This document shows, piece after piece, positions 8,296-29,951 of a stretch of DNA of 64,000 nt. Position 1 is the stretch's first letter. Each line of letters opens with the position of its first letter. The stretch spans positions 1 through 64,000 of the forward strand of contig PLTD01000218.1 in the NCBI GenBank assembly GCA_003165335.1. The letters are read 5' to 3'. Under the pieces are notes generated by a model. That model ran no database searches. It saw nothing but the letters and a program-made list of their open reading frames with translations, and was not told where the DNA came from. The position numbers were made by a program, and so were the translations under genes. The DNA is from Rhodospirillales bacterium. GTDB taxonomy: Bacteria > Pseudomonadota > Alphaproteobacteria > BOG-932 > Roseiterribacteraceae.

Positions 8296-8394
8296 TGAGT
8301 CTTGGAACTCCAGGCTGTTGGCGAGTATTCCGGATTGTCCAGCCAAGGTTAAATGCGCTGAGGCGATCGGACTAGAAGATAGTTTCGTTCGTTG

Positions 8395-11086: not shown

Positions 11087-11170
11087 AGCGAACGTCGACG
11101 ATCGGGACAAGCAGGTTTGGCAGCCGTAACAACCGGTAACGGTACCCGCCACTATAGCGAAGGCGGTTCA

Positions 11171-12154
11171 GTGCCGCGTGGGGTAGATTTCTCCCAGATA
11201 CCTCTTATCGACTTTGCTCTGATGATGAGTGATCGCCGGGCCGACAAGCTTCGGGTCGCGGCGGAGATTCGCGCGGCCTGTGTCGATGTCGGCTTTTTCT
11301 ACCTCGTCAATCACGGTGTCGATGCATCGTTGCGGGACAGGGCGTTTGCTGCGGCGAAACGGTTTTTTGACCAACCGCTGGCGGCAAAATCGGAAATCCA
11401 CATCAGCCAATCACCGCACCTGCGTGGTTATACGCCGATTCTGGAAGAAAATTTCGACACGGCGAATGGCAAGGGCGACCTTAAAGAGTCCTTCGACATG
11501 GCGCTCGAGGTGCCGCTCACCCATCCGATCCTCAGCAGTGATCAGGGCCTATACGGACCGAATGTCTGGCCGGCCGGCGATCCGGCGTTTCAATCCCACA
11601 TTTACGAATATTTTGAGGCGATGCTGCAGTTAAGCCTGCGCCTGCTGCAGGGGTTCGCGCTGGCGCTCGACTTGGCGGAGGATTATTTCGACCCCCTCGT
11701 CCGAATGCCGCTCGCCTCGATGCGCTTGTTGCATTATCCCACTCAGCCGGATTGCGCGCCGGAGGGACAGATCGGCGCCGGCGCACACAGCGATTATGAA
11801 TGTTTCACCATCTTGGCACAGGATGATGTCGGCGGCTTGCAGGTGCTGAATTTGCGCGGTGAGTGGGTAGCCGCACCACCGATTCGCGGCAGCTTTGTCG
11901 TCAATATCGCCGATATGATGTCGCGTTGGTCGAATAACCGATTTGTCTCTACCGTTCACCGCGTTGTTAACACTGGCGATCGCGAACGATATTCGATCCC
12001 ATTTTTCTTCGGCCCATCCTACGACACCGTAATCGCTCCCCTCCCAAGTTGTGTCAGCAGTGAACACCCTGCTGGGTACCCGCCGATTCTCGCTGGCCAC
12101 TATCTCGAAGGTCGTTTCGCGGCGACCTATAGTCATCTCAATGAAGGGGGTTGA
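11171..12154 (+). CDS. Isopenicillin N synthase-family Fe(II)/2-oxoglutarate-type oxygenase, paralogue 2
   Basis: A 327-residue DIOX_N/2OG-FeII protein. It has the N-terminal IPLIDFALMM and ACVDVGFFYLVNHGV blocks, the family segment SPHLRGYTPILEENFD, iron ligands His206 and Asp208 (GAHSDYECFTIL) and His263 (STVHRVVN), and the RYS 2-oxoglutarate-binding motif at 273-275. It resembles paralogue 4 at 62868 (HLVGYVGMGEEN, GAHTDHECFTIL) more than paralogue 1. GTG 11171 follows an AAGGCGG ribosome-binding site and matches the paralogue starts; an in-frame TTG at 11117 would add 18 residues. Substrate unknown; heterocycle hydroxylation is inferred from context. The 263 nt to the TonB receptor contain operator copy C. 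Confidence 0.86.
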   Translation: MPRGVDFSQIPLIDFALMMSDRRADKLRVAAEIRAACVDVGFFYLVNHGVDASLRDRAFAAAKRFFDQPLAAKSEIHISQSPHLRGYTPILEENFDTANGKGDLKESFDMALEVPLTHPILSSDQGLYGPNVWPAGDPAFQSHIYEYFEAMLQLSLRLLQGFALALDLAEDYFDPLVRMPLASMRLLHYPTQPDCAPEGQIGAGAHSDYECFTILAQDDVGGLQVLNLRGEWVAAPPIRGSFVVNIADMMSRWSNNRFVSTVHRVVNTGDRERYSIPFFFGPSYDTVIAPLPSCVSSEHPAGYPPILAGHYLEGRFAATYSHLNEGG

Positions 12155-14866: not shown

Positions 14867-15967
14867 ATGATACGTCACCTTTCACGACGCGATCTTATTC
14901 GGTACTGCGGTGCCGCCGGAGCCTGCCTGGCGGCCGGTTACACCTGTTCGGAAGCCAAAGCCGACGAAATTCTCAAAGTCGGAATCGCCTTAGTTTCGCC
15001 GGTTGCAGAAGTCGGTTGGACCAAGCAGCACAGCCTGGGCGTTGCAGCGATAAAGTCCGCAATGGGCGACAGGGTCGAAGTCAATATCATAGACAATGTC
15101 TTTCAGCCCCAGGATGCCGAACGCGTGTTCCGCGGCTTTGCGGCCTCAGGACACAAATTGATATTTGGCACGAGTTTTTCACACGGCGCCCCAATCGCCA
15201 GAGTCGCGCCGCAATTTCCCAATGTCGCTTTCGACTGTTGCGCCGGATCAAAGGTTCTCGGGAATCTCGGTGCGTTCGAGGCAAAATATTATGAGGGTGC
15301 ATTCCTAGGCGGTATCGCTGCCGGGAAGATGTCCAAAGGTGGGAAGTTGGGCTTCATCGGCGGCTTCCCGATTCCCGATATCGTCGGACCGGCAAATGCG
15401 ATCTTGCTCGGTGCACAAAGCGTGCGACCGGAATCTACCTGCAACATAATATTTATGAATTCCTGGTCTGACCCGGGCAAAGAAAAAGAGGCAGCGCTCG
15501 CGCTCATCGCTCAAGGTTGCGACGTGATCTGTGCGATGACAGACAGTCCGGCCGCCGTTCAGGCTGCCGAGCAGAGCGGTGTCTGGTCCACCGGCTATGC
15601 AAGCGACATGAGCAAATTCGCTCCGACAAAGCAATTAACGGCTTTCACCGTCGACTGGAGCAGCATTTACGTTAAAGATGCGCTGGACGTTGTTGCCGGC
15701 AACTGGAAACCGCAATCGCGTTGGCAAGGCCTGAAAGATGGTGTGGTTAAAATGGCGCCCTATGCCGCTGGTATACCCGGTGATGTGCGGGCCATCCTTG
15801 CCAAGGCGGAAGAAGACATAAAGTCCGGTGCACTGCAGCCTTATGCAGGCGAAATCAAGGATCAGGGCGGAGCCATACGTATCGCGAAGGGCGCGGTCAT
15901 GGCGGATGCCGATGTCCGGAGCGCCAACTGGCTCGTAGCTGGCATGCTGGGCCAGATGAAGGGCTGA
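14867..15967 (+). CDS. BMP-family (PnrA-like) purine-type ABC transporter substrate-binding protein
   Basis: The 366-residue protein begins with a twin-arginine-like signal (HLSRRDLIRYCGAAGACLAAG...) and continues with the basic membrane protein fold: LKVGIALVSPVAEVGWTKQHSLGVAAI near residue 37, GHKLIFGTSFSHG, FEAKYYEGAFLGGIAAGKMSK and GCDVICAMTDSPAAVQAAEQ. BMP proteins bind nucleosides, nucleobases or related heterocycles and deliver them to an ABC importer. The next three genes encode its ATPase and two permeases, and the fifth a guanine deaminase, which points to a purine base such as guanine or xanthine as ligand. A cysteine follows the hydrophobic stretch, so lipoprotein anchoring is an alternative to a soluble periplasmic form. 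Confidence 0.9.
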   Translation: MIRHLSRRDLIRYCGAAGACLAAGYTCSEAKADEILKVGIALVSPVAEVGWTKQHSLGVAAIKSAMGDRVEVNIIDNVFQPQDAERVFRGFAASGHKLIFGTSFSHGAPIARVAPQFPNVAFDCCAGSKVLGNLGAFEAKYYEGAFLGGIAAGKMSKGGKLGFIGGFPIPDIVGPANAILLGAQSVRPESTCNIIFMNSWSDPGKEKEAALALIAQGCDVICAMTDSPAAVQAAEQSGVWSTGYASDMSKFAPTKQLTAFTVDWSSIYVKDALDVVAGNWKPQSRWQGLKDGVVKMAPYAAGIPGDVRAILAKAEEDIKSGALQPYAGEIKDQGGAIRIAKGAVMADADVRSANWLVAGMLGQMKG

Positions 15968-16038
15968 AGGAACGATGCAGCGGATCGCATGGCTGTGATA
16001 TCGCGCCGGCGGGCGGTTCGCTGCGGATCGCGAAAGCC

Positions 16039-17556
16039 ATGAGCGCATATCGGCTTGAACTGTGCGGCGTGACCAAGCGTTATCCCGGCATCGTCGCGAA
16101 CGACGGTATTTCACTGCAGGTCGGCCCGGGCGAAATTCATGCCGTGTTGGGCGAAAACGGCGCCGGCAAAAGCACGCTGATGAAGATCATTTACGGCGCC
16201 GTCGAAGCTGACAGCGGCGATGTTTTGTGGAACGGCGAAAAAGTAAAAATCGCAAACCCGGCTGCGGCACGGCGGCTGGGTATAGGGATGGTCTATCAGC
16301 ATTTTTCGCTGTTCGAGTCCGTATCGGTCGTGGAAAACATCGCTGTCGCAATGAGCGGGCGTTTCGATCTTCCAGCACTATCGACACGAATCGTCCGGCT
16401 ATCCGAACGCTATGGTCTACCAGTCGACCCCAACCGGCTTTTACACCATTTGTCGGTTGGCGAGCGGCAACGGGTCGAGATCATCCGTTGTCTTTTGCAA
16501 AATCCGAAGCTGCTGATCCTGGACGAGCCGACCTCGGTTTTGACGCCGCAAGCGGTGCGACGCCTGTTCGAGGTTTTGCGCACTCTTGCGGCGGAAGGTT
16601 GCAGCATTCTCTATATCAGTCACAAGCTCGACGAGATCAGGGAGCTTTGCGACACAGCCACGGTTTTGCGCAGTGGTCGAGTGGTTGGCACCGCCAGTCC
16701 GAAGCTGGTCAGTGCTGCCGAACTGGCTCGATTCATGGTCGGAGCCGAGTTGCCTGATGTGCATCGCGATCCGGTTGCCCTAACCCCTCATCCACGGTTG
16801 GAGGCAATTGGGCTTTCAGCTCGATCCGATGATCCCTTCGGCACCGATCTCAGCGATCTTTCATTGGCGGTGCATGGCGGAGAGATATTGGGAATCGCTG
16901 GCGTCTCCGGAAACGGTCAGGGCGAACTTCTCTCCCTGTTAAGCGGCGAACGAACGGCGAGCGCGGATATGATCCAGCTCGACGGTCAACCCGTCGGAGA
17001 CTTGCCCGTTGCCGATCGACGTGCCCTCGGTGTCGCCTTTGTGCCGGAGGAACGTCTGGGCCGAGGCGCGGTGCCGACAATCAGCCTGGCCGATAACGGT
17101 CTGCTGACCGCTCATGCGGATGGTTTGGTTAAGCGGGGTTTCATCGACCGTCAGCGCGTCGCCGGCTTTGCCAAGGCGATCATCAGTCAATTCGGCGTTA
17201 AATGTACGGGCCCAGCGGCTCTTGCCCATAGCCTATCGGGCGGAAATCTGCAGAAATTTATAGTTGGTCGTGAAATCAGCTTGTCGCCGCGGGTCCTGAT
17301 CGTATCGCAACCGACTTGGGGCGTAGACGTCGCTGCGTCGGCTTTTATCCGCCAAGCGCTTATCGATCTCAGCCGCAGCGGCGCGGCGGTGCTCGTTATT
17401 TCGGAAGAGCTTGAAGAGCTGTTTCAGATAAGCGACCGGATCGCCGTGATCTATCAGGGCCGCCTTTCCCGAGCCACATCGCGCACGGCGACAAATGTAG
17501 AAGAAATCGGCCTGCTGATGGCGGGGGTCGGTCCGGCCTTCCAGACGGCGGCGTGA
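16039..17556 (+). CDS. BMP-type ABC importer ATPase, two fused nucleotide-binding domains
   Basis: A 505-residue double ATPase like those of the ribose/purine-nucleoside importers. Domain 1 has Walker A GENGAGKST, the signature LSVGERQRVEI, Walker B LLILDEPTSVL and switch histidine ISHKLDEI. Domain 2 has a degenerate Walker A (GVSGNGQGELLSLLSG), signature LSGGNLQKFIVGREIS and an altered Walker B with SQPTWGVDV where a glutamate would be expected. One good and one degenerate site is usual for this family. It powers uptake of the ligand bound by the protein encoded just upstream, working with the permeases at 17558 and 18622. It is 1 nt from the next gene. Confidence 0.93.
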   Translation: MSAYRLELCGVTKRYPGIVANDGISLQVGPGEIHAVLGENGAGKSTLMKIIYGAVEADSGDVLWNGEKVKIANPAAARRLGIGMVYQHFSLFESVSVVENIAVAMSGRFDLPALSTRIVRLSERYGLPVDPNRLLHHLSVGERQRVEIIRCLLQNPKLLILDEPTSVLTPQAVRRLFEVLRTLAAEGCSILYISHKLDEIRELCDTATVLRSGRVVGTASPKLVSAAELARFMVGAELPDVHRDPVALTPHPRLEAIGLSARSDDPFGTDLSDLSLAVHGGEILGIAGVSGNGQGELLSLLSGERTASADMIQLDGQPVGDLPVADRRALGVAFVPEERLGRGAVPTISLADNGLLTAHADGLVKRGFIDRQRVAGFAKAIISQFGVKCTGPAALAHSLSGGNLQKFIVGREISLSPRVLIVSQPTWGVDVAASAFIRQALIDLSRSGAAVLVISEELEELFQISDRIAVIYQGRLSRATSRTATNVEEIGLLMAGVGPAFQTAA

Positions 17557-17557
17557 C

Positions 17558-18622
17558 ATGATGCGAATCGTGCTGGAGCCGCGCCCATCCCCGCTGCCGT
17601 TTATGCGGATCGTGGCGCCGATTATTGCCCTGGTGCTGACGGTAATCGTCAGCTCTCTATTGTTCCTTTCGCTTGGCCTTAACCCGCTTTCAACCCTGGA
17701 AATCTTCTTTATTGAGCCGCTGAGCACCCTAAACGGGGTCTCGGAATGGCTGCTGAAGGCCTCGCCTCTGATCCTGATTGGTCTGGGCATAACCATCGGA
17801 ATCCGCGCCAATGTTTGGAATATCGGCGCTGAAGGCATGTTTACCGTGGGCGCCATTGCGGCCGGTTGGCTGGCAATTACTTTCGGTGGCGGCAACCATA
17901 TCTGGTTGCTTCCGGCGATGATCCTGGCCGGCGCACTGGGCGGGATGGCCTGGGCCGCGATCCCGGCGTTTCTGAAGGTCAAAGCGAACGCCAACGAGAT
18001 TCTCGTTACCTTGATGCTGAATTATGTCGCTGCGCTGATATTGTCCTATCTCGTCAACGGGCCGATGCAAGATCCCGAGGGTATGAACTATCCGCAGACC
18101 GCCGCGTTCGACCCGTCGGCGATGTTCCCGCCCCTGGTTGAGGGCATGCGAATCAACGGTTCGATCGTCATCACCGTTGTTGCGGTCATCCTGGCCTGGC
18201 TGTTTCTTGACCGTAGCTTCGTCGGCTTTCAGATGAGTGTCGGTGGGGCCGCTCCGGCGGCTGCGCGCTACGCAGGCTTTAATCAATCCCGGTCGATTTG
18301 GGTCGGCCTTCTGGTCAGCGGCGCAACAGCAGGGCTCGCCGGCATGATGGAAGCGGCGGGGCCGCTTGGCCAACTGACGCCGGTACTGTCCCCTGGCTAT
18401 GGCTTTACCGCAATTATCGTCGCTTTTGTCGGTCGGCTGACCCCGATCGGGGTCGTATTCGGCGGTTTGCTGCTGTCTCTGCTCTATCTGGGCGGCGAGG
18501 CGGTACAGATGTCGCTCAGCCTTCCGGCATCGGTCACGCGGACGTTTCAGGGAACGCTTCTTTTCTTTCTGCTCGCCGCGGACGTACTGATTCTTTACCG
18601 CATTCGCATTCGGAGGCGGTGA
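17558..18622 (+). CDS. BMP-type ABC importer permease 1
   Basis: A 354-residue integral membrane protein of the BPD_transp_2 (LivHM/ribose-type) permease family. It has about nine to ten helices, starting IVAPIIALVLTVIVSSLLFLSLG, with the family segments NVWNIGAEGMFTVGAIAAG and FLKVKANANEILVTLMLNYVA near residues 85-165, the latter being the contact region for the ATPase. The late GYGFTAIIVAFVGRLTPIGV is typical of nucleoside/purine permeases (YufP-like). The stop overlaps the start of permease 2 by 1 nt. ATG 17561 is an equivalent alternative start. Confidence 0.92.
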   Translation: MMRIVLEPRPSPLPFMRIVAPIIALVLTVIVSSLLFLSLGLNPLSTLEIFFIEPLSTLNGVSEWLLKASPLILIGLGITIGIRANVWNIGAEGMFTVGAIAAGWLAITFGGGNHIWLLPAMILAGALGGMAWAAIPAFLKVKANANEILVTLMLNYVAALILSYLVNGPMQDPEGMNYPQTAAFDPSAMFPPLVEGMRINGSIVITVVAVILAWLFLDRSFVGFQMSVGGAAPAAARYAGFNQSRSIWVGLLVSGATAGLAGMMEAAGPLGQLTPVLSPGYGFTAIIVAFVGRLTPIGVVFGGLLLSLLYLGGEAVQMSLSLPASVTRTFQGTLLFFLLAADVLILYRIRIRRR

Positions 18623-19548
18623 TGATCGAACATCTTCTTGTTCCAATTCTGAGCGGCACGATCGTAGCGGCCACGCCACTGATCTATGCCGCCATTGGCG
18701 AGCTCGTCGCGGAACGGTCGGGCGTGGTCAATCTCGGTGTCGAGGGCATTATGCTGATCGGCACGGTTACCGCCTTTGCGGTCGCATTTGCCGGCTACCC
18801 GGCGTTTGTCGCCGGCCTGGCCGCCGCCGGTGCCGGAGCACTGGCATCCCTCGTGTTCGCGGTCCTCGCGCTCAGTCTTGCCACCAACCAATATGCCGCG
18901 GGCCTGGCTCTCACTATTCTGGGGTCTGGATTGTCGGCCTTCATCGGTCATAATTTCGGCAGCGCATCGCTGAAGACAATCGCCAAGATTCACGTGCCCA
19001 TATTGTCGGACTTGCCGGTGATCGGGCCGGTATTGTTCGCGCATGACGCTATGACTTACCTGGCGCTGGCAATAACCGCAGCCGTGTGGTGGTTTCTCTA
19101 TCGCACCAAAGCCGGTCTGGTGGTGAGGATCGTCGGGGAGGCGCCGCAGTCGGCTCATGCGATAGGCTATCCGGTCATTTTTATCCGTTACCTGACGACC
19201 ATGTTCGGCGGATCGATGGCCGGGCTTGGCGGCGCCTACCTGGCACTGGCCTATACCCCGCTCTGGGTCGAAAATATGACGGCTGGACGCGGCTGGATCG
19301 CACTGGCGCTAGTCGTATTTGCCGCTTGGCGTCCGGGGCGCGTGCTGTTGGGTGCTTGGTTGTTCGGGGGCGTTACAGTGCTGCAGCTTTTCGCTCAGGG
19401 CATCGGGATCAAGGTGCCGTCTGAACTTCTGTCGTCATTGCCCTATATAGCAACGATCATCGTGCTGGTGGCAATTTCGCGGAATCCTCAGACCCTGCGG
19501 CTCAACGCGCCGGTGTCGCTCGGTCAGTCGTTCCGGCCTCAAGGCTGA
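18622..19548 (+). CDS. BMP-type ABC importer permease 2
   Basis: A 308-residue membrane protein of the same permease family as its neighbour (YufQ-like shorter partner). It opens MIEHLLVPILSGTIVAATPLIYAAIGELVAERSGVVNLGVEGIM (read in pieces), with the conserved ER-S-G-V-x-N-x-G-x-E-G motif, and contains LATNQYAAGLALTILGSGLSAFIG and GEAPQSAHAIG. The start at 18622 shares one base with the preceding stop and follows GGAGG, which decides it over upstream in-frame ATGs that lie inside permease 1. It completes the SBP-ATPase-permease-permease importer and is 16 nt before the guanine deaminase gene, consistent with one operon for uptake and first metabolic step. Confidence 0.93.
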   Translation: MIEHLLVPILSGTIVAATPLIYAAIGELVAERSGVVNLGVEGIMLIGTVTAFAVAFAGYPAFVAGLAAAGAGALASLVFAVLALSLATNQYAAGLALTILGSGLSAFIGHNFGSASLKTIAKIHVPILSDLPVIGPVLFAHDAMTYLALAITAAVWWFLYRTKAGLVVRIVGEAPQSAHAIGYPVIFIRYLTTMFGGSMAGLGGAYLALAYTPLWVENMTAGRGWIALALVVFAAWRPGRVLLGAWLFGGVTVLQLFAQGIGIKVPSELLSSLPYIATIIVLVAISRNPQTLRLNAPVSLGQSFRPQG

Positions 19549-19564: not shown

Positions 19565-20938
19565 GTGCCTGACCAAGCATTTCTCGGCACGGCGTTTCAC
19601 GCGCCTGCGCCGGATCGACTGGACGTTCTCGAAAACAGCTTGATCGTCGTCGACGATAACGGAATGATCACAGCGGTCCACGCGAGCGGATCGACCGATG
19701 CCCTGAGCGAGGCCGAGCGATTTCGTGCAAGCGGCCGGCTGGTGGTTCTGAAGCCCGGCCAGTTTCTATTGCCAGGTCTCATCGATCTGCATGTTCATGC
19801 GCCCCAATGGCCGCAACTTGGCAAGGCGCTCGACGTCCCGTTGGAAGTCTGGTTACAGAAATATACTTTCCCGCTGGAGGCTCGGTACGCCGATACTGGC
19901 TTTGCCGAACCGATCTATGAATCGCTGGTCGATAGTTTGCTGGCCAATGGAACCACGACGGCGCTCTATTTCGCCACGACCCATCTACCGGCGACCGAGT
20001 TGCTTGCCAATATATGCCTGCGACGCGGTCAGCGTGCGCTGATAGGCAAGGTCGCGATGGACGATCCGAACGAGTGCCCGTCTTATTATCGCGACGCCTC
20101 CGCCGAACTGGCGGCCGCCGATACGCGTGCTTTCATCGATTATGTGCGCCGCCTGCCGGGAAACGAGACGCAGTTGATCCAGCCGGTGGTCACACCACGC
20201 TTTATCCCGTCTTGCACAGATGACCTGCTGTTCAGGCTAGGCGGGCTCGCAAAGGAAACCGGTTGCCACGTGCAGACCCATTGTTCGGAAAGCGATTGGG
20301 AGCATGACTTTGTGATCGCACGCTGCGGCATGACCGATGCTGAGGCGCTTGATCGATTTGGATTGTTGACGCGTAAGACTGTGCTGGCCCATGGAAATTT
20401 CCTCGGCGACACCGATATCGCGCTGATTAAGCAGAAGGGGGCTGGTATCGCCCACTGCCCGCTATCGAATGTCTATTTTGCCAATGCGGTGCTCCCGGTG
20501 CGCAAGCTGATCGACCAGGATGTGCATGTCGGCCTGGGTACCGACATCGCCGGCGGTGCCAGTCCGTCGATTTTCGATAATGCCCGCCAGGCAGTGGTGG
20601 CGTCGCGCAGCCTCGAAGGGGGCGTAGATGTCGCGATACCGCCCGACAGACGCGGCGTCCCAGACTCTAGGATCACTGCGGTTGAGGCTTTCTGGCTGGC
20701 GACAGCAGGAGGCGGCATCGCACTCGACATGCCGATCGGGGTATTTGCGCCGGCCTATCAGTTCGATGCCATTCTCGTGGATGCCAATGCGGGCGACAGC
20801 AACTTGCTGCTTTATCCGGACGATGGCCCCTACGATATCCTGCAGAAGATCATTTACAGTGCGGGTCGAACAAATGTGAGCAAGGTATGGGTGGCTGGCA
20901 GGCTGGTTCGAACGATCGGCCCGAAGTCGCAGGACTGA
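19565..20938 (+). CDS. guaD: Guanine deaminase, amidohydrolase-superfamily type, paralogue 1
   Basis: A 457-residue metal-dependent amidohydrolase close in layout to bacterial/eukaryotic guanine deaminase. It has the metal pair in LPGLIDLHVHAPQWPQLG, the guanine-deaminase-specific WLQKYTFPLE segment, VQTHCSESDWE, VLAHGNFL, AHCPLSNVYF and VGLGTDIAGGASPSI, where the last Asp is a metal ligand. It hydrolyses guanine to xanthine, feeding xanthine dehydrogenase. GTG start is supported by AGGAG at 19554-19558. It is the last gene of the BMP importer operon; its stop abuts the stop of the convergent GST-like gene with no spacer. A second amidohydrolase-type enzyme is at 29948 and a small unrelated one at 10604. 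Confidence 0.9.
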   Translation: MPDQAFLGTAFHAPAPDRLDVLENSLIVVDDNGMITAVHASGSTDALSEAERFRASGRLVVLKPGQFLLPGLIDLHVHAPQWPQLGKALDVPLEVWLQKYTFPLEARYADTGFAEPIYESLVDSLLANGTTTALYFATTHLPATELLANICLRRGQRALIGKVAMDDPNECPSYYRDASAELAAADTRAFIDYVRRLPGNETQLIQPVVTPRFIPSCTDDLLFRLGGLAKETGCHVQTHCSESDWEHDFVIARCGMTDAEALDRFGLLTRKTVLAHGNFLGDTDIALIKQKGAGIAHCPLSNVYFANAVLPVRKLIDQDVHVGLGTDIAGGASPSIFDNARQAVVASRSLEGGVDVAIPPDRRGVPDSRITAVEAFWLATAGGGIALDMPIGVFAPAYQFDAILVDANAGDSNLLLYPDDGPYDILQKIIYSAGRTNVSKVWVAGRLVRTIGPKSQD

Positions 20939-21586
20939 TTACTCGGATGCGGCCGGGCTCGCCCCGAAAATTCCGGGCATCACCATAAACCCGGGAATGC
21001 GCTTGACGCGGTCGGTCCAGCGACGGACTGCCGGATAGGGCAGGCGCGAAACTCCGCCTTCCTCAGACAGCATGACATAGGGGAAGCAAGCTATATCGGC
21101 GATCGTCGGGTGCTTGCTGCTGCACAGCCAATCATTGCCTTCCTGTTCGGCGAACCAAAGATGTTCGTCCAGAACCCGAAACAGCGCGTGCGCACCTGCG
21201 CGACATTTGTCGATATCGAAATCGTAGAACAGAGAATCATGCAGTCGTGCCGCCGACGCGGTAGCGGTAATGCTGTCGGCGCAGCCTAACCACATCGCGA
21301 TCCGACCCAGCATCCTGGCGTCGTCGCGGGGATACCACAGACCCGACGGATCGTACGCGCAGGCGAGATAGACGAGGATGGCCTGAGCATCCCGCAGAAT
21401 GAAGCCGTGATCGTCGATAACCGGCAATTGGCCCAGCGGGTTGATCTTCAGAAACCATGGGCTTTTGTGCTCACGACCGGGATAGAAGTCGATTGCAATC
21501 CGTTCGAATGGAACGCCCAGAATCCCCATCAGCAAGCGAAGCTTGTAACAGTTGCCCGATAGTTCAAAATCGTAAAGTTTGATCAA
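20939..21586 (-). CDS. Glutathione S-transferase-like protein, possible structural subunit of the split Rieske oxygenase (NdmE-like)
   Basis: The 215-residue protein has an N-terminal thioredoxin-fold domain (IKLYDFELSGNCYKLRLLMGILG, then FLKINPLGQLPVIDDHGFILRDAQAILVYLA with the cis-Pro and the E/D-S/A glutathione-binding turn, here D-A) and an all-helical C-terminal domain (ADIACFPYVMLSEEGG). It is the third gene of an operon with a catalytic Rieske-oxygenase subunit lacking a Rieske centre and a separate Rieske protein. In caffeine-degrading Pseudomonas the GST-like NdmE forms a complex with Rieske-less NdmC, so a scaffold role is inferred here; ordinary glutathione chemistry remains possible. 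It starts 12 nt after the Rieske gene stop. Confidence 0.82.
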   Translation of the reverse strand: MIKLYDFELSGNCYKLRLLMGILGVPFERIAIDFYPGREHKSPWFLKINPLGQLPVIDDHGFILRDAQAILVYLACAYDPSGLWYPRDDARMLGRIAMWLGCADSITATASAARLHDSLFYDFDIDKCRAGAHALFRVLDEHLWFAEQEGNDWLCSSKHPTIADIACFPYVMLSEEGGVSRLPYPAVRRWTDRVKRIPGFMVMPGIFGASPAASE

Positions 21587-21598
21587 GATAGCGATCCC

Positions 21599-22291
21599 TC
21601 AGGCAGCAGCGCGTTCGATCGCGTCGCGCATCTCGCTCACTCGGCCGTTGAATTGGCGCAAAACGCTCAGCCGGTCTGCGTCTCGGACCAAGCTTGGGAT
21701 AAGTCCGTGGATGACAGTCTGTTCGGCATTCATCGGCTGAAGGAGAAGGACAGACTTTTCACCGGGTCCGGTGGTCTCAAGGATATAGTTACCTGCAGAT
21801 GTCGCCGGCTCGAAGTTGTGGGCTTCGATCAAGCTTTGGGCCACCAGGTCGACCGGCGCTTGGGTGAAGACGCTTCGCATAGTCGTGTAGGAATCGAGTT
21901 GCAGCACCGGAACGGCCGCCGCGTCGGGCTGATCACCCAGATTGATCCAGATAAACCCGTATTGTTCGGCGCAACCGTAACGCTTGGTCTTGATGACGTT
22001 CGGCGGCTTCTGGCCGGGATGTGCCGGGATGTACGTGCATTGGCCGGTGATGCTTGCATACCACCAGCCGTGGTACTGGCAGCGCAATTCGCTTCCGGTG
22101 TTGAGCCCGATCGACAGTCTGACACCGCGATGAGGGCAGCGATTTTCCCATGCGTTAACGAAACCCAAATCGTCGCGCCAGAGCGCGGCTTCCTGTCCCA
22201 GCAACTCTGTCTGAACCACATTGCGGGGGACGATTTCCTCGCAGCGGGAAACCGGAAACCACAGCCTTATAGCCTCTTCTGCGTCACTCAT
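21599..22291 (-). CDS. Rieske [2Fe-2S] protein with decayed catalytic domain (electron-transfer subunit of split oxygenase)
   Basis: A 230-residue protein whose first 120 residues form a complete Rieske domain of the ring-hydroxylating oxygenase type: WFPVSRCEEI, then ENRCPHRGVRLS (C-x-H) and LRCQYHGWWY (C-x2-H). The following region starts like the catalytic domain (VPVLQLDSYTTMRSVF...APVDLVAQSLIEAHNFEPAT) but lacks the D-x2-H-x4-H iron ligands and is far too short. It is therefore an electron donor, not an oxygenase. It lies 2 nt after the gene for a catalytic subunit that has lost the Rieske centre, so the two proteins complement each other. No NAD(P)H:flavin reductase for the Rieske centre is visible in the window. 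The two halves may descend from duplicated full-length oxygenases that degenerated in opposite ways. Confidence 0.88.
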   Translation of the reverse strand: MSDAEEAIRLWFPVSRCEEIVPRNVVQTELLGQEAALWRDDLGFVNAWENRCPHRGVRLSIGLNTGSELRCQYHGWWYASITGQCTYIPAHPGQKPPNVIKTKRYGCAEQYGFIWINLGDQPDAAAVPVLQLDSYTTMRSVFTQAPVDLVAQSLIEAHNFEPATSAGNYILETTGPGEKSVLLLQPMNAEQTVIHGLIPSLVRDADRLSVLRQFNGRVSEMRDAIERAAA

Positions 22292-22293
22292 TC

Positions 22294-23163
22294 TTAGACA
22301 CCCAGGTCATGCGGTATTGCGCCGTATCGTATGTCGCCCTCGTGCAACCACCGCCGATAAGCGGCAGAGGCGGCATCTGCTCGAATTGGAACCTCCGCGC
22401 GTGGATTGAGAGGAAGGCGTTTTGGCAACTGATTCTCTAATATCGGCTTGTCCTGGTTGAAGATCATCTGTGCAAACTGGCGCACCGCTGCTTCAGTCAG
22501 CTCATCCTTTAGATAGGCCAGCAGCATGTGGACGACGCAGCGTTCTTCCGAAACCGGCTGCACGAACAGCGCAATCATGTCGCTGCGGGATGGATCAATC
22601 GGGTTGGCCTTGTGAAGCATGATCGTGTAGGGCCGAACGATCCTGTAGACGTAGTCGACATCGAATCCTTCGGTTGCTACGGGTGATGCCAAAGGCTGGT
22701 AGAATTTGCAGTCGGTGGCGACGATGCCGCCGTCCGGCAGAGTGGCAACCTTGTATTTCGGGACTTCTGTATGCGGTTCCTCGCCCAGATAACCGGCATG
22801 AACAAAAGCCAGATGGCTCATATCGAGAAAGTTCTCTACGGCCCTTAAGCCCGACACAGCGACGCCGAACGACCCTGCATTCACTATCCAGCGGTCCCGA
22901 TCGGCACATTCCGGGAAATCGACGATATCGCGGTTGGGCGTGCCGAGGCAGACCCAGACATAGCCGTATTTCACCTTCGCGGGGGCAACGCCGCCGGACT
23001 CCAGATCTACGCTAGGGATCACCGATCGGTTGTCCAATTCAACCACGAGCGAGAACCCGAGCAACTGAGTCGCAATTCGCCCAAGACGGGTAAGCTCGGC
23101 GATTTCGGCAACCACATGCCAATCGTCCCAGAGCGCGGATTCAACGCCAGAACCTTCGGGCAC
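22294..23163 (-). CDS. Rieske-less ring-hydroxylating-type oxygenase catalytic subunit, paralogue 2 (NdmC-like)
   Basis: The 289-residue protein keeps the oxygenase catalytic domain: AVENFLDMSHLAFVHAGYLG near residue 112 with D-x2-H-x4-H, and MIFNQDKPILENQLPKRLP near residue 238 with the acidic ligand region. Its N-terminal DDWHVVAEIAELTRLG and YGYVWVCLGTPN correspond to outer Rieske-barrel strands, but no cluster-binding Cys or His pairs are present. It is clearly paralogous to the product of 9672-10574 (shared VENFLDM, QDKPILEN, ADA.S.AYRRWL). It starts with GTG after GGAAGG and heads the operon with the Rieske and GST-like genes. The likely reaction is mono-oxygenation or N-/O-demethylation of a small heterocycle. 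Operator copy D lies about 218 nt upstream. Confidence 0.85.
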   Translation of the reverse strand: MPEGSGVESALWDDWHVVAEIAELTRLGRIATQLLGFSLVVELDNRSVIPSVDLESGGVAPAKVKYGYVWVCLGTPNRDIVDFPECADRDRWIVNAGSFGVAVSGLRAVENFLDMSHLAFVHAGYLGEEPHTEVPKYKVATLPDGGIVATDCKFYQPLASPVATEGFDVDYVYRIVRPYTIMLHKANPIDPSRSDMIALFVQPVSEERCVVHMLLAYLKDELTEAAVRQFAQMIFNQDKPILENQLPKRLPLNPRAEVPIRADAASAAYRRWLHEGDIRYGAIPHDLGV

Positions 23164-23433: not shown

Positions 23434-24111
23434 TTACGCGACCTTGAGGGCGAAAGCCTGTTCCAGAGGAAAGGCTTGATGCGGTAGGTCTTCGATACGA
23501 AATCCGCGCAGTATGGCGCGATAGTGATCGTCGATCAGGTCTCGTGCCCGACGCGCCTGCCGCCGCTCGATAAGTTGCACCAAGCGTTCGTGATCGTCGC
23601 ACAGGCGGCAGCGGTCATAGTCGCGAGGATAGAGGGCATGCAACAACTTTGACCGGCGGTTGAGCTGGTCGTGTATTTCGGAAATCACCCGGTTATTGCT
23701 GAGGCTCATCAACTCGGCGTGGAACTCCAGTCCCAATTGATCAGCCCGGACATGATTGTCGCTTTCGGTGGCATGGCGCTGGCGCGCAATATTGTCGTTT
23801 AGCCGGGTGAGCGCGACCGGGACGACGCCGTCGCAAAGCTGCGCCACCATTCCCTGCTCCAGCAGGATGAGAGCCTCGTAGACTTCGATAGCTTCTTGAA
23901 GTGTCGGGTTGGCGACAAAGGCGCCCCGATTGCGCTCAATCTTGACCAGCCCATCTTCCGCCAACCGGATCAGCGCTTGACGAACGACGATCCGGCTGGT
24001 GCCCAGCACTTCGCCCAACTCGCGTTCGCCGAGCTTGGTCGCCGGGGCCAGCCGATGCGTCAGTATGGCCTCGGATATTCGGGCCGCAATGTCTTGGGAA
24101 AGAGATGACAT
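23434..24111 (-). CDS. GntR-family regulator, FadR/FCD subfamily
   Basis: A 225-residue repressor-type protein with an N-terminal winged helix (ISEAILTHRLAPATKLGERELGEVLGTSRIVVRQALIRLAEDGLV) and a helical FCD effector domain. The latter has the metal/effector histidines expected at LEFHAELMSLSNN, CDDHERLVQLIERR and LIDDHYRAIL. Such regulators sense small carboxylates or pathway intermediates. ATG 24111 is chosen since it gives the usual N-terminus and lies after the cysteine desulfurase stop; an in-frame ATG at 24141 overlaps that gene. It sits between the xanthine dehydrogenase block and the Rieske operon and may be the last gene of the former. It is a candidate reader of the 19-bp palindromes. 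Confidence 0.85.
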   Translation of the reverse strand: MSSLSQDIAARISEAILTHRLAPATKLGERELGEVLGTSRIVVRQALIRLAEDGLVKIERNRGAFVANPTLQEAIEVYEALILLEQGMVAQLCDGVVPVALTRLNDNIARQRHATESDNHVRADQLGLEFHAELMSLSNNRVISEIHDQLNRRSKLLHALYPRDYDRCRLCDDHERLVQLIERRQARRARDLIDDHYRAILRGFRIEDLPHQAFPLEQAFALKVA

Positions 24112-24118
24112 GACTAGG

Positions 24119-25267
24119 TCAAGCCGCACTGAGCGGTGCATTGGCTCGTCGCCAGCGCGCCGTTGCGTCGGTCAGTAAGTCTATGGCCATATCGATTTCC
24201 TCCCCAGTATTTGTTCTTCCGATTCCAAATCTGATGCTTCCATGCATTGCATATTCAGTGTGTCCCATCGCAGCCAAAACATGCGACGGTTCTCCATTCC
24301 CGCAGGCCGATCCGGTCGAGAGCACGACAGATGGAATGTCGAGCAACATGTCTGCAGCATCGACTCCATCGATTGAGACATTGAGGCAGCCGGGCAGGCA
24401 GTCCTTTGCCGCGCTGTTACGCCGGATGTCGGGAATAGCGGCGGCTAGCCCGGCATCGAGTCTTCCCTTGAGTACGGAGATATGTTTTGCGTCGTCGGTC
24501 CTGCGTTCCTGCGCCAAGCGGCTAGCGGCTCCAAGCCCAACAGCCAAAGCTGTCGGCACGGTCCCCGAACGACGCCTGGACTGTTGTTTGCCGCCGAAGA
24601 ACATCGGCCGAAATGGCAGGCCGTCCCGTACGAACAACGCTCCGATACCCATTGGGCCATAAAGCTTGTGGCCGGAAAGACTAAGGAGATCGATGCCGGT
24701 TGCGGCAACGTCCATCGCGCAAGTCGAAAGCGACTGCGCCGCATCGACATGAAGCGTAGCCCCGAATTGGCGGCAAAGCGCTGCGATCTGGTCCAGCGCC
24801 TGAAAACTGCCGACCTCATTGTTCGCACTCATCACCGAAACGAAAGCAGGACCCTCTGCCAGCAGTTGGGACAACCGGCTCACATCGACGAAGCCATAAG
24901 GATCGACTGGAAGCTTGGTGGTTGGGTGGCCGCGAAGCGCCAGGGTAGGAAGGCAATTGATCACACTGGGATGTTCGATTGCGGAGACAATAACCTGCCA
25001 GCCTTCAGGGACGGCTCCGAGCAGGGCTAGATTATTCGACTCTGTCGCACCCGACGTGAAGACTATCTCGCCGGCAGTGGCTCCGATTAGCTTTGCGACC
25101 TCCGCGCGCGCGCGATCCAGCGCCTCGGCCGCGCGCCATCCGGCGCTATTGGCAGCATGGGGATTTCCGACGCCGCCCGCCCCCAGCCACGGCAGCATTG
25201 CGTCGAGAACGGCCGCATCGATCGGCGTTGACGCCAGATGATCGAGATAAATTTCGGTTCTCGACAT
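24119..25267 (-). CDS. Cysteine desulfurase (NifS/IscS-like, PLP enzyme), probably for XDH cofactor sulfuration
   Basis: A 382-residue class-V aminotransferase-fold protein: IYLDHLASTPID at the start, GEIVFTSGATESNNLAL near residue 65, HVDAAQSLSTCAMD, the PLP-lysine motif LLSLSGHKLYGPMGIGALFVR near 195-215, and the active-site cysteine loop VVLSTGSACGNGEPSHVL near 320. It lies in the xanthine dehydrogenase operon directly after xdhC. XdhC-type chaperones need a cysteine desulfurase to give the molybdenum its terminal sulfido ligand, so a dedicated role here is likely (known in Rhodobacter with NifS4). ATG 25267 is preferred to an upstream in-frame ATG because it falls just after the xdhC stop and has GGGGGA in front. 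Confidence 0.9.
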   Translation of the reverse strand: MSRTEIYLDHLASTPIDAAVLDAMLPWLGAGGVGNPHAANSAGWRAAEALDRARAEVAKLIGATAGEIVFTSGATESNNLALLGAVPEGWQVIVSAIEHPSVINCLPTLALRGHPTTKLPVDPYGFVDVSRLSQLLAEGPAFVSVMSANNEVGSFQALDQIAALCRQFGATLHVDAAQSLSTCAMDVAATGIDLLSLSGHKLYGPMGIGALFVRDGLPFRPMFFGGKQQSRRRSGTVPTALAVGLGAASRLAQERRTDDAKHISVLKGRLDAGLAAAIPDIRRNSAAKDCLPGCLNVSIDGVDAADMLLDIPSVVLSTGSACGNGEPSHVLAAMGHTEYAMHGSIRFGIGRTNTGEEIDMAIDLLTDATARWRRANAPLSAA

Positions 25268-25280
25268 GAATCCCCCGCAG

Positions 25281-26132
25281 TCAGGCAAATTTCCGGCGGT
25301 CGGAAAATGGGACTACCCGTTCGGCAGCTCGATCTGTGGCAATGAGCAATTCGGCCGCAACCATCGCGGCGATGACCGCAGGGCGCTTGTCACGGTTGAG
25401 GCCGGCTCCGATCGGACAGATGAGCCGTCCAAGATCGTCCGGCGTACCGCAGCGCCCGACATACCATCGCTCGAACCGTCTCCGTTTGGTTGCAGACCCG
25501 ATCAACCCCGTATAGCCCATATCTGTCCGGCGTAATGCGGCTCCGGCCAGTTCGAAATCGAGCGCGTGGCTATGGGTGAGGATGAGAATGCTGGCTCCGG
25601 CCTCCGCATCACGAAGGCGGGCGACCGGGTCGGAACTCACCAACCGCACTACGCCGTTTGGCATCGGATCGGGAAACTCTTCGGCCCGGCTGTCGACCCA
25701 GACCAGTCTCATCGGCAAGGGAGCCAGCGCGTTCGCTATAGCCTTTCCGACATGTCCGGCACCAAACAGATATATGCCGGGCAGTGCCTCACGCTCATTC
25801 TGCTCAAGACGGTCGATACGCTCTAACGTTCCCAGGTCTGCTCTTTCCAACCGCACGCTGACGTGGCCGCCGCAGCACTGGCCGATGGATGGACCAAGCG
25901 CAATCTCCATTTCGTGGTCTGTGGCGCCGCTCTCGATCAAGCGTCGCGCTGCGGAGATGGCCTCGTATTCGAGCCGTCCCCCACCGATCGTACCGATCGA
26001 CCGCGTGCTCAAGACCAGCATATGTGCGCCCGCCTCACGCGGTGTCGAGCCGCGCGTTTCGGCCAAGGTCACTATGACCGACGGCTCCCCAGCATCCAGG
26101 GATTGTCGCAACATATCGCCCAAGCCAGTCAT
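25281..26132 (-). CDS. xdhC: XdhC-type molybdenum cofactor insertion/sulfuration chaperone
   Basis: A 283-residue XdhC/CoxI protein. The N-terminal half has VTLAETRGSTPREAGAHMLV, the GTIGGGRLEYEAI segment and SIGQCCGGHVSV (conserved cysteines). The C-terminal half is a Rossmann-like domain with YLFGAGHVGKAIANALAPL and ends near CPIGAGLNRDKRPAVIAAMVAAELL. XdhC binds molybdopterin cofactor, protects its sulfido form and hands it to the XdhB subunit. ATG 26132 overlaps the xdhB stop in an ATGA, which decides the start over more distant in-frame ATGs. It is not part of the mature enzyme. Confidence 0.94.
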   Translation of the reverse strand: MTGLGDMLRQSLDAGEPSVIVTLAETRGSTPREAGAHMLVLSTRSIGTIGGGRLEYEAISAARRLIESGATDHEMEIALGPSIGQCCGGHVSVRLERADLGTLERIDRLEQNEREALPGIYLFGAGHVGKAIANALAPLPMRLVWVDSRAEEFPDPMPNGVVRLVSSDPVARLRDAEAGASILILTHSHALDFELAGAALRRTDMGYTGLIGSATKRRRFERWYVGRCGTPDDLGRLICPIGAGLNRDKRPAVIAAMVAAELLIATDRAAERVVPFSDRRKFA

Positions 26133-28483
26133 GGTTCGGGCTTCCCGGTGGCGTTGCGCTGGCGCAGGTCTTCTATTGTGAATAGCACGCGTTCCGGTGT
26201 CGCCGGGGCGTCGAGCCGCGGACAAAGGCGGTAATCGGCCACGCTGGCGATCGCATCGGACAGGGCATGGAGTACGCAGGCCGCCAGCATCAATGGCGGC
26301 TCACCGACCGCCTTGGACCGGTGAATCGTTTCGGACCGATTCTCGATACCTTCGGCAAGCCGAACATTGAATATCGGCGGACAGTCGCCGCAAGCCGGGA
26401 TCTTGTAGGTACTCGGCGCATGGGTTCGCAGTTTGCCTTTGTCGTCCCACCATAGTTCTTCGGTGGTTAACCATCCCATGCCCTGGACGAAGCCGCCCTC
26501 AACCTGGCCGCGATCGATTGCCGGGTTCAGCGAGCGTCCCGCGTCATGCAGAATATCAACACGGTCGACCCGATACTCACCGGTCAGTGTATCGATCGTC
26601 ACTTCCGCCACGGCTGCCCCGTACGCGAAGTAGTAAAATGGATGGCCGCGGCCTGCGGCACGATCCCAATGAATAAGCGGCGTTTTGTAGTAACCCGTGG
26701 CCGATAGCGAAATCCGCGATTGATAGGCTTGGCCGACTAGGGCGGTGAAAGTTTGACTCTCGGTCCCGGCGCTTACTGTCCCTGCTGCGAAGACGATATC
26801 TTCCGGCGTTACGCCCCATTTTTCCGCTGCAAATGCTGCGAGCCGCTGTTTTATCGTGCGCGCCGCGGCCTGGGCCGCCATGCCGTTCAGATCAGCGCCT
26901 GACGACGCTGCGGTCGCAGATGTGTTTGGCACCTTGCCGGTATTTGTCGCCGTGATCCTGATACAGTCGAGATCGACTTGAAACTCTTCGGCAACGATCT
27001 GCGCCACCTTGGTGTAGAGTCCTTGCCCCATCTCCGTGCCACCGTGGTTCAGCTGGATGCTGCCGTCGGCATAAACATGGACCAGCGCGCCGGCCTGATT
27101 GTACTGCGTCGCCGTAAATGAGATGCCGAACTTAACGGGAGTCAGTGCGATGCCGCGTCGAAGGATTGGATTCGTGGCATTGTGCGCACGGATCGTGTCA
27201 CGGCGCTGCTGATAATCGGAACTTCGCTCCAGATCGGCGACCAGCCCCTGGATGATATTGTCTCCGACGGTTTGGTGATAGGGCGTGACGTTCCGGTCCG
27301 TTGTTCCGTAGAAGTTTAGTTTGCGGATTTCCAGCGGGTCCTTGCCGACCGCATAGGCGATTTCGTCGATGATGCGTTCCGCAACCATCACGCCCTGGGG
27401 GCCGCCAAAACCGCGAAACGCGGTGTTGGACGCGGTGTTCGTTTTCAGAGGCTGCGACCGTATCGATGCGTTCCCATAGAAATAGCAGTTGTCGGCGTGG
27501 AAGCATGCGCGGTCGGTCACCGGACCGGAAAGATCAGCCGAAAAACCACAGCGCGCGGCAAGCACCATTTCGACACCGTCGATAACTCCGTCATCGTCGA
27601 AGCCAATTTCGTAATCCATTTCGAAATCGTGCCGTTTGCCCGTGATGATCATGTCGTCGTCGCGATCCGGGCGAATCTTGGCCGACCGACCGAGGCGCTG
27701 AGCGACCAAAGCCACGACTACGGCAAACAGATTGGACTGAGTCTCCTTGCCGCCAAAACCGCCGCCCATGCGACGCGCTTCGACCGTGATCGCGTGTGCA
27801 GGGATCGCCAGGATACGCGAAACAACGTGCTGCACCTCACTTGGATGCTGAGTTGAGCTATAGACAGTCACATCGCCATCTTCGCCGGGCACCGCTATCG
27901 CGGCCTGACTTTCTAGATAGAAATGCTCTTGCCCACCGACTTTGAGCCTCCCGCTCAGGCGGTGCTTGGCTGTGGCGAGGGCGGCGCCGGAATCGCCTAG
28001 ACGAAGTTGCAGAGGCGAAAATACGAGCTTGCCGCCCGGACGGGCGGTCTCAATGTCGAGGACGGCATCTAAAATTTCATAGTCGATCTCGGCCAGCCGA
28101 ACTGCACGACGGGCCTGATCGCGAGTCTCAGCTGCCACTGCGAAGATCGGCTGCCCGACATACTCCACGAGCCTATCGGCAAGAAGCGGTTCGTCGCCCA
28201 GGCCCATGCTTCCCACATCGTTCTTGCCGCCGACATCGGCGGCCGTGAACACTCGGACAACGCCGGGCGCCGAAATTACTTTGGTCAAATCCAGCGAATT
28301 GATCCGTGCATGGGCATGTTCGCTGAGGCCAAGATAGACATGGAGCAACCCCGCCGGCTCTGGGATGTCGTCGATGAACAGGGCCTCGCCGGACACATGT
28401 TTGCGTGCGCTGTCGTGCGCCGGAGATTCGTGGACGCCACCTCGAATTTGGGGGAACGAATTGGGCGGAGCTCCCTCAGGCAT
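26129..28483 (-). CDS. xdhB: Xanthine dehydrogenase molybdopterin-binding large subunit
   Basis: A 784-residue molybdenum hydroxylase subunit. Visible family segments are GEALFIDDIPEPAGLLHVYLGLSEHAHARI near the start, EARRMGGGFGGKETQ (Mo-cofactor contact), AFRGFGGPQGVMVAERIIDEIA containing the active-site Arg of the AFRGFG loop, GGTEMGQGLYTKVAQI, and VGEPPLMLAACVLHAL near the C-terminus, which holds the catalytic glutamate (GEPP). It hydroxylates hypoxanthine/xanthine to urate. ATG 28483 overlaps xdhA by 8 nt and is preceded by GGAGA; a further upstream in-frame ATG lies well inside xdhA. Xanthine as substrate is inferred from the guaD and puuD neighbours. Confidence 0.95.
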   Translation of the reverse strand: MPEGAPPNSFPQIRGGVHESPAHDSARKHVSGEALFIDDIPEPAGLLHVYLGLSEHAHARINSLDLTKVISAPGVVRVFTAADVGGKNDVGSMGLGDEPLLADRLVEYVGQPIFAVAAETRDQARRAVRLAEIDYEILDAVLDIETARPGGKLVFSPLQLRLGDSGAALATAKHRLSGRLKVGGQEHFYLESQAAIAVPGEDGDVTVYSSTQHPSEVQHVVSRILAIPAHAITVEARRMGGGFGGKETQSNLFAVVVALVAQRLGRSAKIRPDRDDDMIITGKRHDFEMDYEIGFDDDGVIDGVEMVLAARCGFSADLSGPVTDRACFHADNCYFYGNASIRSQPLKTNTASNTAFRGFGGPQGVMVAERIIDEIAYAVGKDPLEIRKLNFYGTTDRNVTPYHQTVGDNIIQGLVADLERSSDYQQRRDTIRAHNATNPILRRGIALTPVKFGISFTATQYNQAGALVHVYADGSIQLNHGGTEMGQGLYTKVAQIVAEEFQVDLDCIRITATNTGKVPNTSATAASSGADLNGMAAQAAARTIKQRLAAFAAEKWGVTPEDIVFAAGTVSAGTESQTFTALVGQAYQSRISLSATGYYKTPLIHWDRAAGRGHPFYYFAYGAAVAEVTIDTLTGEYRVDRVDILHDAGRSLNPAIDRGQVEGGFVQGMGWLTTEELWWDDKGKLRTHAPSTYKIPACGDCPPIFNVRLAEGIENRSETIHRSKAVGEPPLMLAACVLHALSDAIASVADYRLCPRLDAPATPERVLFTIEDLRQRNATGKPEP

Positions 28484-29951
28484 GGGTAATTCTCCGCTGG
28501 CCGACAAGTCTTGTTTGCGGATCGCCAACCGTCGTTTCGTTGAAGAACTTCATCAGCAAATTCGCCGACACGGTGCGGCGATATTCTGACGACGCACGCC
28601 AATCGGCGAGCGGCGTAAAATCGCCGCGCAGAGCCTCCATCGCGACAGCAACAGTGCCCAAATCCCAGTTTTTCCCGGTCAGGGCTGCTTCGGCGCCGGC
28701 CGCTCGCTTGGGCGTTCCGGCCATACCTCCAAATGCGATCCGTACGCGTGTAACGATTCCGCCACTCAGTTCGACCAGGAACGCGCCGCACACAGCGGAA
28801 ATGTCCTGATCGAAGCGCTTGGAAATCTTGTAGGCGCCGAACGTCGTGCCGGGAGCCGGTTTGGGTATAACGACGCGTTCGATGAACTCGCCGGGCCTAC
28901 GGTCCTGCTTTCCATAGGCTATGAAATAATCCTCGATCGGCATACTGCGCCGTTCGTTTCCATGTCTCAGAACTACCGTCGCGCCGATCGCGATCAGCGC
29001 GGGAGGTGTATCGCCGATCGGCGAGCCGTTGCCGATATTGCCGCCGAATGTGCCGACATTGCGTACCTGTAATCCCCCCGTGCGCCGCAGCAACTCGCCA
29101 AAATCGGGATAGAGCGCCGTTAGTGCGGCTTCTGCATCTGCAAAGGTTGCAGCCCCACCGATTTCGAGAGAGTCGTGGGTTTCGACGATCCTGCGCAACT
29201 CAGGAATACCACCGAGATAGACGATGCTGTCCAATATCTTCTGCGATTTGGTGACCCAAAGCCCTACATCCGTTGCGCCGGACACGATGGTGGCACCCGG
29301 GTTCGCTACGAGCACATCCGCGAGAGACTCAACAGTCGGGGGTGCGAAGTACCGCTTGCCGGCATTTTCCAGAAAAACCGATGCAATTTTGTCCCCACCG
29401 TTGAGCCGAGAATTCAGCTCTTCGGCAGTCAGCACCAGCGCGTCGGTAGAGCGATCTCCCAACTCGTACATGTGCCGTGCCGCGGCGATGATCGGCGCAT
29501 ATCCGGTGCAGCGGCAGAGATTACCAGCCAGTACATCGCGGATCCTATCCTCGCTTGGGCAGGCCTCGCTCAAATAGAGCGCAAACAGCGACATGACGAA
29601 GCCTGGGGTACAAAATCCACATTGCGATCCATGACAGTCCACCATCGCCTGTTGGACCGGATGAAAACCGCCGTCCCGCTTGCGCAAGTGTTCGACGGTC
29701 AGAAGGTGACAGCCGTCAAGCGTCGGCACGAAGCGAATGCAGGCATTGACCGCTTCATAGCGCACCCGTTCACCATCGATACGGCCGATCACCACGGTGC
29801 AGGCGCCGCAATCGCCCTCGGCGCAGCCTTCTTTCGTGCCGTTGAGCCTCTTGTGCAGTCGCAACCAGTCCAACACAGTCGTCGTAGGATCGATGTTGCC
29901 GATTTCTTGGATCTTGTCGCCGAGCAGAAATCGTACGACTGATCGGGTCAT
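28476..29951 (-). CDS. xdhA: Xanthine dehydrogenase small subunit (two [2Fe-2S] centres and FAD domain)
   Basis: A 491-residue protein. Its N-terminal plant-ferredoxin-like cluster motif is NGTKEGCAEGDCGACTVV (residues about 38-55), the second helical [2Fe-2S] domain has GSQCGFCTPGFVMSL and LAGNLCRCTGYAPI, and the FAD domain runs from about residue 190 with NPGATIVSGATDVGLWV, VRNVGTFGGNIGNGSPIGDTPPALIA (FAD contacts) and a CO-dehydrogenase-flavoprotein-like C-terminus. It relays electrons from the molybdenum site in XdhB to FAD and NAD. The ATG start overlaps the guanine deaminase stop as ATGA, so deamination and oxidation are translationally coupled. Confidence 0.96.
   Translation of the reverse strand: MTRSVVRFLLGDKIQEIGNIDPTTTVLDWLRLHKRLNGTKEGCAEGDCGACTVVIGRIDGERVRYEAVNACIRFVPTLDGCHLLTVEHLRKRDGGFHPVQQAMVDCHGSQCGFCTPGFVMSLFALYLSEACPSEDRIRDVLAGNLCRCTGYAPIIAAARHMYELGDRSTDALVLTAEELNSRLNGGDKIASVFLENAGKRYFAPPTVESLADVLVANPGATIVSGATDVGLWVTKSQKILDSIVYLGGIPELRRIVETHDSLEIGGAATFADAEAALTALYPDFGELLRRTGGLQVRNVGTFGGNIGNGSPIGDTPPALIAIGATVVLRHGNERRSMPIEDYFIAYGKQDRRPGEFIERVVIPKPAPGTTFGAYKISKRFDQDISAVCGAFLVELSGGIVTRVRIAFGGMAGTPKRAAGAEAALTGKNWDLGTVAVAMEALRGDFTPLADWRASSEYRRTVSANLLMKFFNETTVGDPQTRLVGQRRITHA

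Follow-up and report, generated by a model that had tools for sequence, protein, structure and literature searches.

A Rieske oxygenase of the NdmC/NdmE lineage with its Rieske centre on a separate, reciprocally reduced subunit: a probable methylpurine N-demethylase

In an alphaproteobacterial genome we identified a three-gene operon that encodes a Rieske oxygenase divided between two polypeptides, together with a GST-like protein. Sequence and structure prediction show that one subunit (CAT) has a complete mononuclear iron site and the other (RIE) a complete Rieske site, and that each carries a vestige of the domain it is missing. We judge it probable (roughly 0.78) that the trio assembles into a heteromeric Rieske oxygenase belonging to the NdmC/NdmE lineage, with the [2Fe-2S] centre on an electron-transfer subunit of its own, and that it acts as a ferredoxin-fed N-demethylase of methylpurines.

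Results

The operon lies in the window, a stretch of 64,000 nucleotides, and consists of the following genes:

22294-23163 (-): CAT, Rieske-less catalytic subunit, NdmC homologue; 289 aa, VanA_C match, iron site D114-x2-H117-x4-H122 plus D238
21599-22291 (-): RIE, free-standing Rieske subunit; 230 aa, vestigial C-terminal catalytic domain without iron ligands
20939-21586 (-): GST-like subunit, NdmE homologue; 215 aa, GST_N/GST_C matches

The three genes are co-directional, with 2 nt between the CAT stop and the RIE start and 12 nt between the RIE stop and the GST start. CAT matches the VanA_C profile (E 9e-26) and no Rieske family, and RIE matches the Rieske profile only (E 3e-18). Residues E110, N111, D114, H117, H122 and D238 of CAT are invariant in an alignment of 33 sequences. 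Judged by alignment with SxtT, NdmA and NdmB, D114 is the bridging aspartate, H117 and H122 are the histidine ligands, and D238 occupies the third-ligand position. The cluster ligands of RIE (C52-x-H54 and C71-x2-H74) are intact, and the D-x2-H-x4-H motif is absent from it. The Rieske motif and the 2-His-1-carboxylate site, which a canonical alpha subunit carries on one chain, are therefore found here on two. These results bear out the initial annotation, which had described an oxygenase with D-x2-H-x4-H ligands and without C-x-H/C-x2-H motifs, a protein with an intact Rieske site and a shortened, ligand-free catalytic domain, and a GST-like third product. The CAT-RIE-GST grouping, reduced in the same reciprocal way, is present at dozens of loci, so the arrangement in the window is not due to chance.

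The reduction of each subunit can be traced in sequence and in predicted structure. CAT is ~45 residues shorter than its full-length relatives. It has lost the part of the Rieske domain that binds the cluster and has kept the outer strands. These strands align to the N-terminus of RIE with an hhalign probability of 97% (E 5e-11; both are pairwise values, uncalibrated to any database). RIE has ~100 residues where the catalytic domain of full-length relatives has ~200. AlphaFold2 models of CAT (pLDDT 87.1, pTM 0.87) and RIE (pLDDT 91.7, pTM 0.87) were compared with solved structures using Foldseek, and each half was found to have the overall fold of a Rieske oxygenase alpha subunit. The best PDB fold for CAT is that of SxtT/GxtA (TMq 0.77-0.82), with NdmA/NdmB at 0.68-0.74. 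The RIE model can be superposed on complete oxygenases across most of its length (TM 0.69-0.82), with values over its length of 0.75-0.82 on GxtA/SxtT and 0.70-0.77 on NdmA. As evidence for the remnant in RIE we rank this structural comparison above the profile match of its C-terminus to CAT, which covers one hairpin only (probability 77%). From the match of CAT and RIE to the same solved oxygenases it follows that both are descended from complete oxygenases. Reciprocal decay, as first proposed from the sequence, thus stands, with CAT keeping the outer Rieske strands and the RIE model spanning whole oxygenases. Of the earlier proposal that the arrangement arose by complementary loss after duplication, the complementary loss is supported by the hhalign result and the folds; a single duplication that gave rise to both CAT and RIE is the natural and likely reading of its source.

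A point against the favoured reading is the rapid divergence of the vestigial half of RIE: among Rhizobium-group sequences it shows 44-58% identity, compared with 63-82% for the Rieske half. Free-standing RIE proteins of Rhizobium, Agrobacterium and Sinorhizobium are nevertheless under purifying selection (dN/dS mostly <0.3), the vestigial half included.

The closest characterised relatives of the trio belong to caffeine degradation. NdmCDE is the 7-methylxanthine N7-demethylase of Pseudomonas putida CBB5; NdmC is without a Rieske cluster, NdmD carries an extra one, and NdmE is a GST-like protein required for solubility and activity (PMC4408171). Clusters homologous to NdmCDE also exist in Sinorhizobium and Mesorhizobium (PMC4408171). 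The plasmid of Paraburkholderia caffeinilytica CF1 encodes two full-length oxygenases, NdmC, an NdmD fusion, NdmE and formaldehyde-detoxifying genes; the NdmC, NdmD and NdmE labels for this strain were assigned here by homology and gene order. Against these proteins, CAT is 44% identical to NdmC, the GST-like protein is 59% identical to NdmE, and RIE is 36% identical to residues 15-245 in the N-terminal part of NdmD. Another NdmD-like plasmid protein, from locus L084, matches the NdmD ferredoxin domain (PDB 6icm_D, E 3e-33).

Phylogenetic trees place both halves in lineages of their own. Split CATs (n=51) form a single clade (support 100/99), within which the CAT of the window groups (97/90) with the first of two tandem catalytic subunits in Sinorhizobium, Mesorhizobium and relatives. 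The split Rieske subunits (n=43) likewise form a single clade relative to full-length oxygenases (100/98), which falls into two halves. One half comprises 22 sequences, all of them stand-alone (91/85). The other 21 (98/90) include every fusion and also basal stand-alone proteins, the RIE of the window among them. Together with the identities to the P. caffeinilytica proteins, the trees uphold the original suggestion that the three subunits are related to NdmC/NdmE and that the Rieske centre stands on a subunit of its own. Changes between the fused and the stand-alone state number three by parsimony, several deep forks being only moderately supported. Because the fused NdmD type is nested in mostly stand-alone lineages, the fusion looks derived; on the sequences compared, the ancestral state is most simply taken to be stand-alone.

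The trees also bear on whether RIE could instead be a recent truncation of an NdmD-type fusion in this genome, non-functional or in the course of being lost. It shares its clade with all the fused proteins, the genome yielded no NdmD-type reductase, and a stand-alone protein at locus L005 is nested among fusions, so such losses do happen. However, the cluster ligands of RIE are intact and its AlphaFold2 model is confident, its nearest partner (L108, 96/87) is itself stand-alone, the other clade is stand-alone throughout, and stand-alone proteins are basal in its own clade too. We consider recent truncation very improbable.

Loci were collected from GTDB species genomes, from plasmids and from two samples, one of 385 genomes at class level and one of 399 at phylum level. 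Split loci were inspected in 19 genomes of these samples, of which 13 have a stand-alone Rieske subunit and five an NdmD-type fusion. The remaining one (L143, 6107-7417(-)) encodes a Rieske subunit fused to a plant-type [2Fe-2S] ferredoxin domain alone, without flavin or NADH domains, and is an intermediate between the stand-alone and NdmD types. Gene order differs between groups: CAT-RIE-GST in the window and in L004, L005, L104 and L108; RIE-CAT-GST and then an amidohydrolase and a Bmp importer in Rhizobium, Agrobacterium and Qingshengfaniella; and CAT-(CAT)-[RIE-reductase]-GST in Sinorhizobium, Mesorhizobium, Pseudomonas and Klebsiella. Stand-alone Rieske subunits have a VanB-type reductase beside them as a separate gene in L150 and L139. 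The latter is Komagataeibacter nataicola plasmid pKNA08 from a kombucha tea culture, where positions 923-7474 hold a full-length oxygenase, two split sets and one VanB-type reductase; the first split set is highly divergent (CAT at 1984-2802, Rieske protein of 177 aa). On a Lichenihabitans plasmid, the region 7983-9186 (L113) encodes a Rieske protein of 136 aa beside a GST gene that is apparently broken up, while its CAT gene (L087) lies at the opposite end of the record; this set is possibly a decaying copy. GST matches at L092, L093 and L116 adjoin TetR regulators or stand in other contexts, and were excluded as members of the trio.

To find the source of electrons, the genome containing the window (5.19 Mb, 95.6% complete, so that a gene in the missing remainder is possible) was searched with the reductase domain of NdmD. 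No NdmD/VanB-type reductase was found in it, the sole match being a flavohaemoglobin-like protein. The PF00970 (FAD_binding_6) profile proved too insensitive to test for the absence of a reductase, as genuine NdmD-type reductases do not exceed its cut-off, and the search with the NdmD domain took its place. The genome does encode Fer2 ferredoxins and two Reductase_C ferredoxin reductases. As no dedicated reductase of the NdmD/VanB type was found, RIE would be reduced by a general cellular [2Fe-2S] ferredoxin and its ferredoxin reductase.

An alternative is that RIE is a Rieske ferredoxin that diffuses between several oxygenases of this genome and supplies them, rather than a structural subunit of the CAT complex. 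RIE is a separate polypeptide, the genome contains 33 Rieske matches, and a second catalytic subunit (CAT2, below) is a possible further client. Against this, RIE has an oxygenase-type Rieske domain and a vestigial catalytic domain, at 230 aa compared with the ~105 aa of Rieske ferredoxins, and its gene accompanies those of CAT and GST in the inspected loci. The diffusible role appears distinctly unlikely, and we retain RIE as a subunit of the oxygenase.

The surroundings of the operon are rich in genes for purine metabolism:

14867-19548 (+): Bmp/PnrA-type ABC importer (PF02608) with binding protein, ATPase and two permeases; borders of the second permease approximate
19565-20938 (+): GDA1, guanine deaminase, divergent; TIGR02967, 404 bits (cut-off 375); convergent with the GST gene
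23434-24141 (-): GntR/FCD regulator upstream of CAT; homologues adjoin the trio in S. meliloti and Mesorhizobium
25281-29951 (-): XDH (xanthine dehydrogenase) genes, comprising an XdhC-like factor (XdhC families) and large and small subunits; Fer2 match at 29739-29900; the two large genes are named from sequence
29948-31354 (-): GDA2, canonical guanine deaminase; NF006679, 610 bits against a cut-off of 351

The same island holds urate oxidase (Urate_ox_N family) and OHCU decarboxylase. Between the XdhC and GntR genes lies a class-V aminotransferase of cysteine-desulfurase-like type (24119-25288(-)), which may sulfurate the XDH cofactor. Elsewhere in the window, positions 45420-60713 carry a second set of nitrogen-heterocycle genes: an amidase, a 2OG oxygenase, an Asp/Glu/hydantoin racemase, an amidohydrolase, an allantoate amidohydrolase and an AtzD/TrzD-type cyanuric acid amidohydrolase (535 bits, cut-off 360).

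Parts of the purine context recur at other loci. Orthologues of GDA1 adjoin the trio in L091, L108 and L114 (556-628 bits), and homologues of the Bmp importer stand beside most trio loci as well as beside the full-length relatives L131-L135. The full-length, NdmA/B-like oxygenase of the kombucha plasmid groups in the tree with oxygenases of caffeine clusters. The recurrent guanine deaminase and importer, and the plasmid with its NdmA/B-like oxygenase, point to N-methylpurine demethylation, and we think that the CAT system probably demethylates some N-methylpurine. The substrate class suggested by the initial annotation, a purine or similar ring, is consistent with this circumstantial context of guanine deaminases, XDH and Bmp importer. 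It counts against the favoured reading that no formaldehyde-handling genes, of the kind present with ndmCDE in P. caffeinilytica, were identified beside the operon in the window.

The specificity site of CAT differs from those of its relatives. At the two positions exchanged in the NdmA 'QL' mutant structures, NdmA reads FNDLVF, NdmB FQKRVL, the tandem first subunits FMQLIF, and the CAT of the window FAQMIF. Nearly all other split CATs, CAT2 included, read FQ there; CAT has Ala231 where most have Gln. This departure at the NdmA/NdmB regiospecificity site suggests that the substrate of CAT may not be that of NdmC. It also lends some support to the alternative that the trio hydroxylates a purine or another N-heterocycle, in a manner comparable to HpxDE, rather than acting as an N-demethylase; distant relatives from the plasmid search, at 28-30% identity, are annotated as HpxD. 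HpxD is, however, far more distant than NdmC and NdmE are, and the window already encodes xanthine dehydrogenase genes with XdhC. We therefore regard a hydroxylase as unlikely and prefer demethylation.

The window contains a second catalytic gene that the earlier reading did not include:

9672-10574 (+): CAT2, another Rieske-less catalytic subunit; 300 aa, no Rieske gene of its own, in the split-CAT clade

CAT2 is 45% identical to CAT over residues 62-281. Relatives have tandem catalytic genes beside one Rieske gene, so that RIE may plausibly serve both CAT and CAT2 in the window; CAT2 may use RIE for a different position or substrate. The FA of CAT and the FQ of CAT2 at the specificity site are consistent with such a difference. 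CAT2 is flanked by 2OG-Fe(II) oxygenase genes with DIOX_N/2OG-FeII_Oxy matches (8534-9595(+) and 11117-12154(+)). Genes of this type also occur beside split sets in L004, L084, L104, L136, L138 and L143.

Discussion

Ordinary Rieske oxygenases are C3-symmetric, with each Rieske centre ~12 A from the iron of the neighbouring subunit (PMC12445004). By analogy, RIE would dock on CAT much as a Rieske domain contacts the catalytic domain of the adjacent subunit in these trimers, and electrons received from ferredoxin would pass to the iron through the invariant Asp114, which would bridge a Rieske histidine and the iron. A ring of three cannot alternate strictly between donor and acceptor when these are on different chains; either RIE would dock on a CAT trimer, or the assembly would differ. 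The GST-like protein may hold the complex together, as has been proposed for NdmE.

The reaction would be the oxidative N-demethylation of a methylated purine. One route, which we favour only tentatively, has GDA1 convert 7-methylguanine to 7-methylxanthine, the trio demethylate this to xanthine with release of formaldehyde, and XDH take up the xanthine. Published accounts of 7-methylguanine catabolism by split Rieske enzymes were not found in the literature searched.

A broader reading, speculative at present, is that the trio represents a widespread class in which a free-standing, catalytically dead Rieske paralogue serves exchangeable catalytic subunits and draws on general ferredoxins. Its assembly would not be a homotrimer, its job would be the salvage of N-methylpurines from nucleic-acid turnover, and the caffeine-type NdmCDE would be a derived offshoot.

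Studies of electron transfer between the subunits of Rieske oxygenases normally use homotrimers, in which every chain carries both centres and these cannot be varied independently. Their natural separation allows Rieske potential, docking and stoichiometry to be adjusted singly. The survey also suggests that the unusual NdmCDE complex of caffeine degradation arose by a late fusion in a larger family that is common in rhizobia and uncharacterised, and for which methylpurine catabolism is a testable natural role.

The initial annotation had regarded the architecture as possibly undescribed. This holds in part. The split itself is already published for NdmCDE (PMC4408171). No paper in the literature searched, which covered few subscription journals, described a Rieske subunit that stands alone or its probable ancestral status; the form is widespread and not confined to the window.

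Comparison with known systems

NdmCDE resembles the window trio most closely: it has a Rieske-less catalytic subunit, a Rieske centre on another polypeptide and a GST-like partner, and its homologues fall in the same clades of both trees. The difference is that the Rieske domain of NdmD is fused to an FMN/NADH/[2Fe-2S] reductase, whereas RIE, at 230 aa, is without a reductase domain. Among solved proteins, CAT and RIE are both closest to SxtT and GxtA (PDB 6wn3, 6wnc) in sequence and in fold, but SxtT and GxtA carry both metal centres on one chain. NdmA and NdmB (PDB 6ick, 6icl), the N1- and N3-methylxanthine demethylases, share with CAT the catalytic fold and the iron site, and their substrates are purines; they differ in being full-length chains and in the residues of the regiospecificity site. 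HpxDE, the molybdenum-independent xanthine hydroxylase, is likewise a Rieske system that oxidises purines, but HpxD is only 28-30% identical to CAT, and the pairing of a full-length HpxD with a reductase, HpxE, is not the composition found in the window, where the catalytic and Rieske sites are parted between CAT and RIE.
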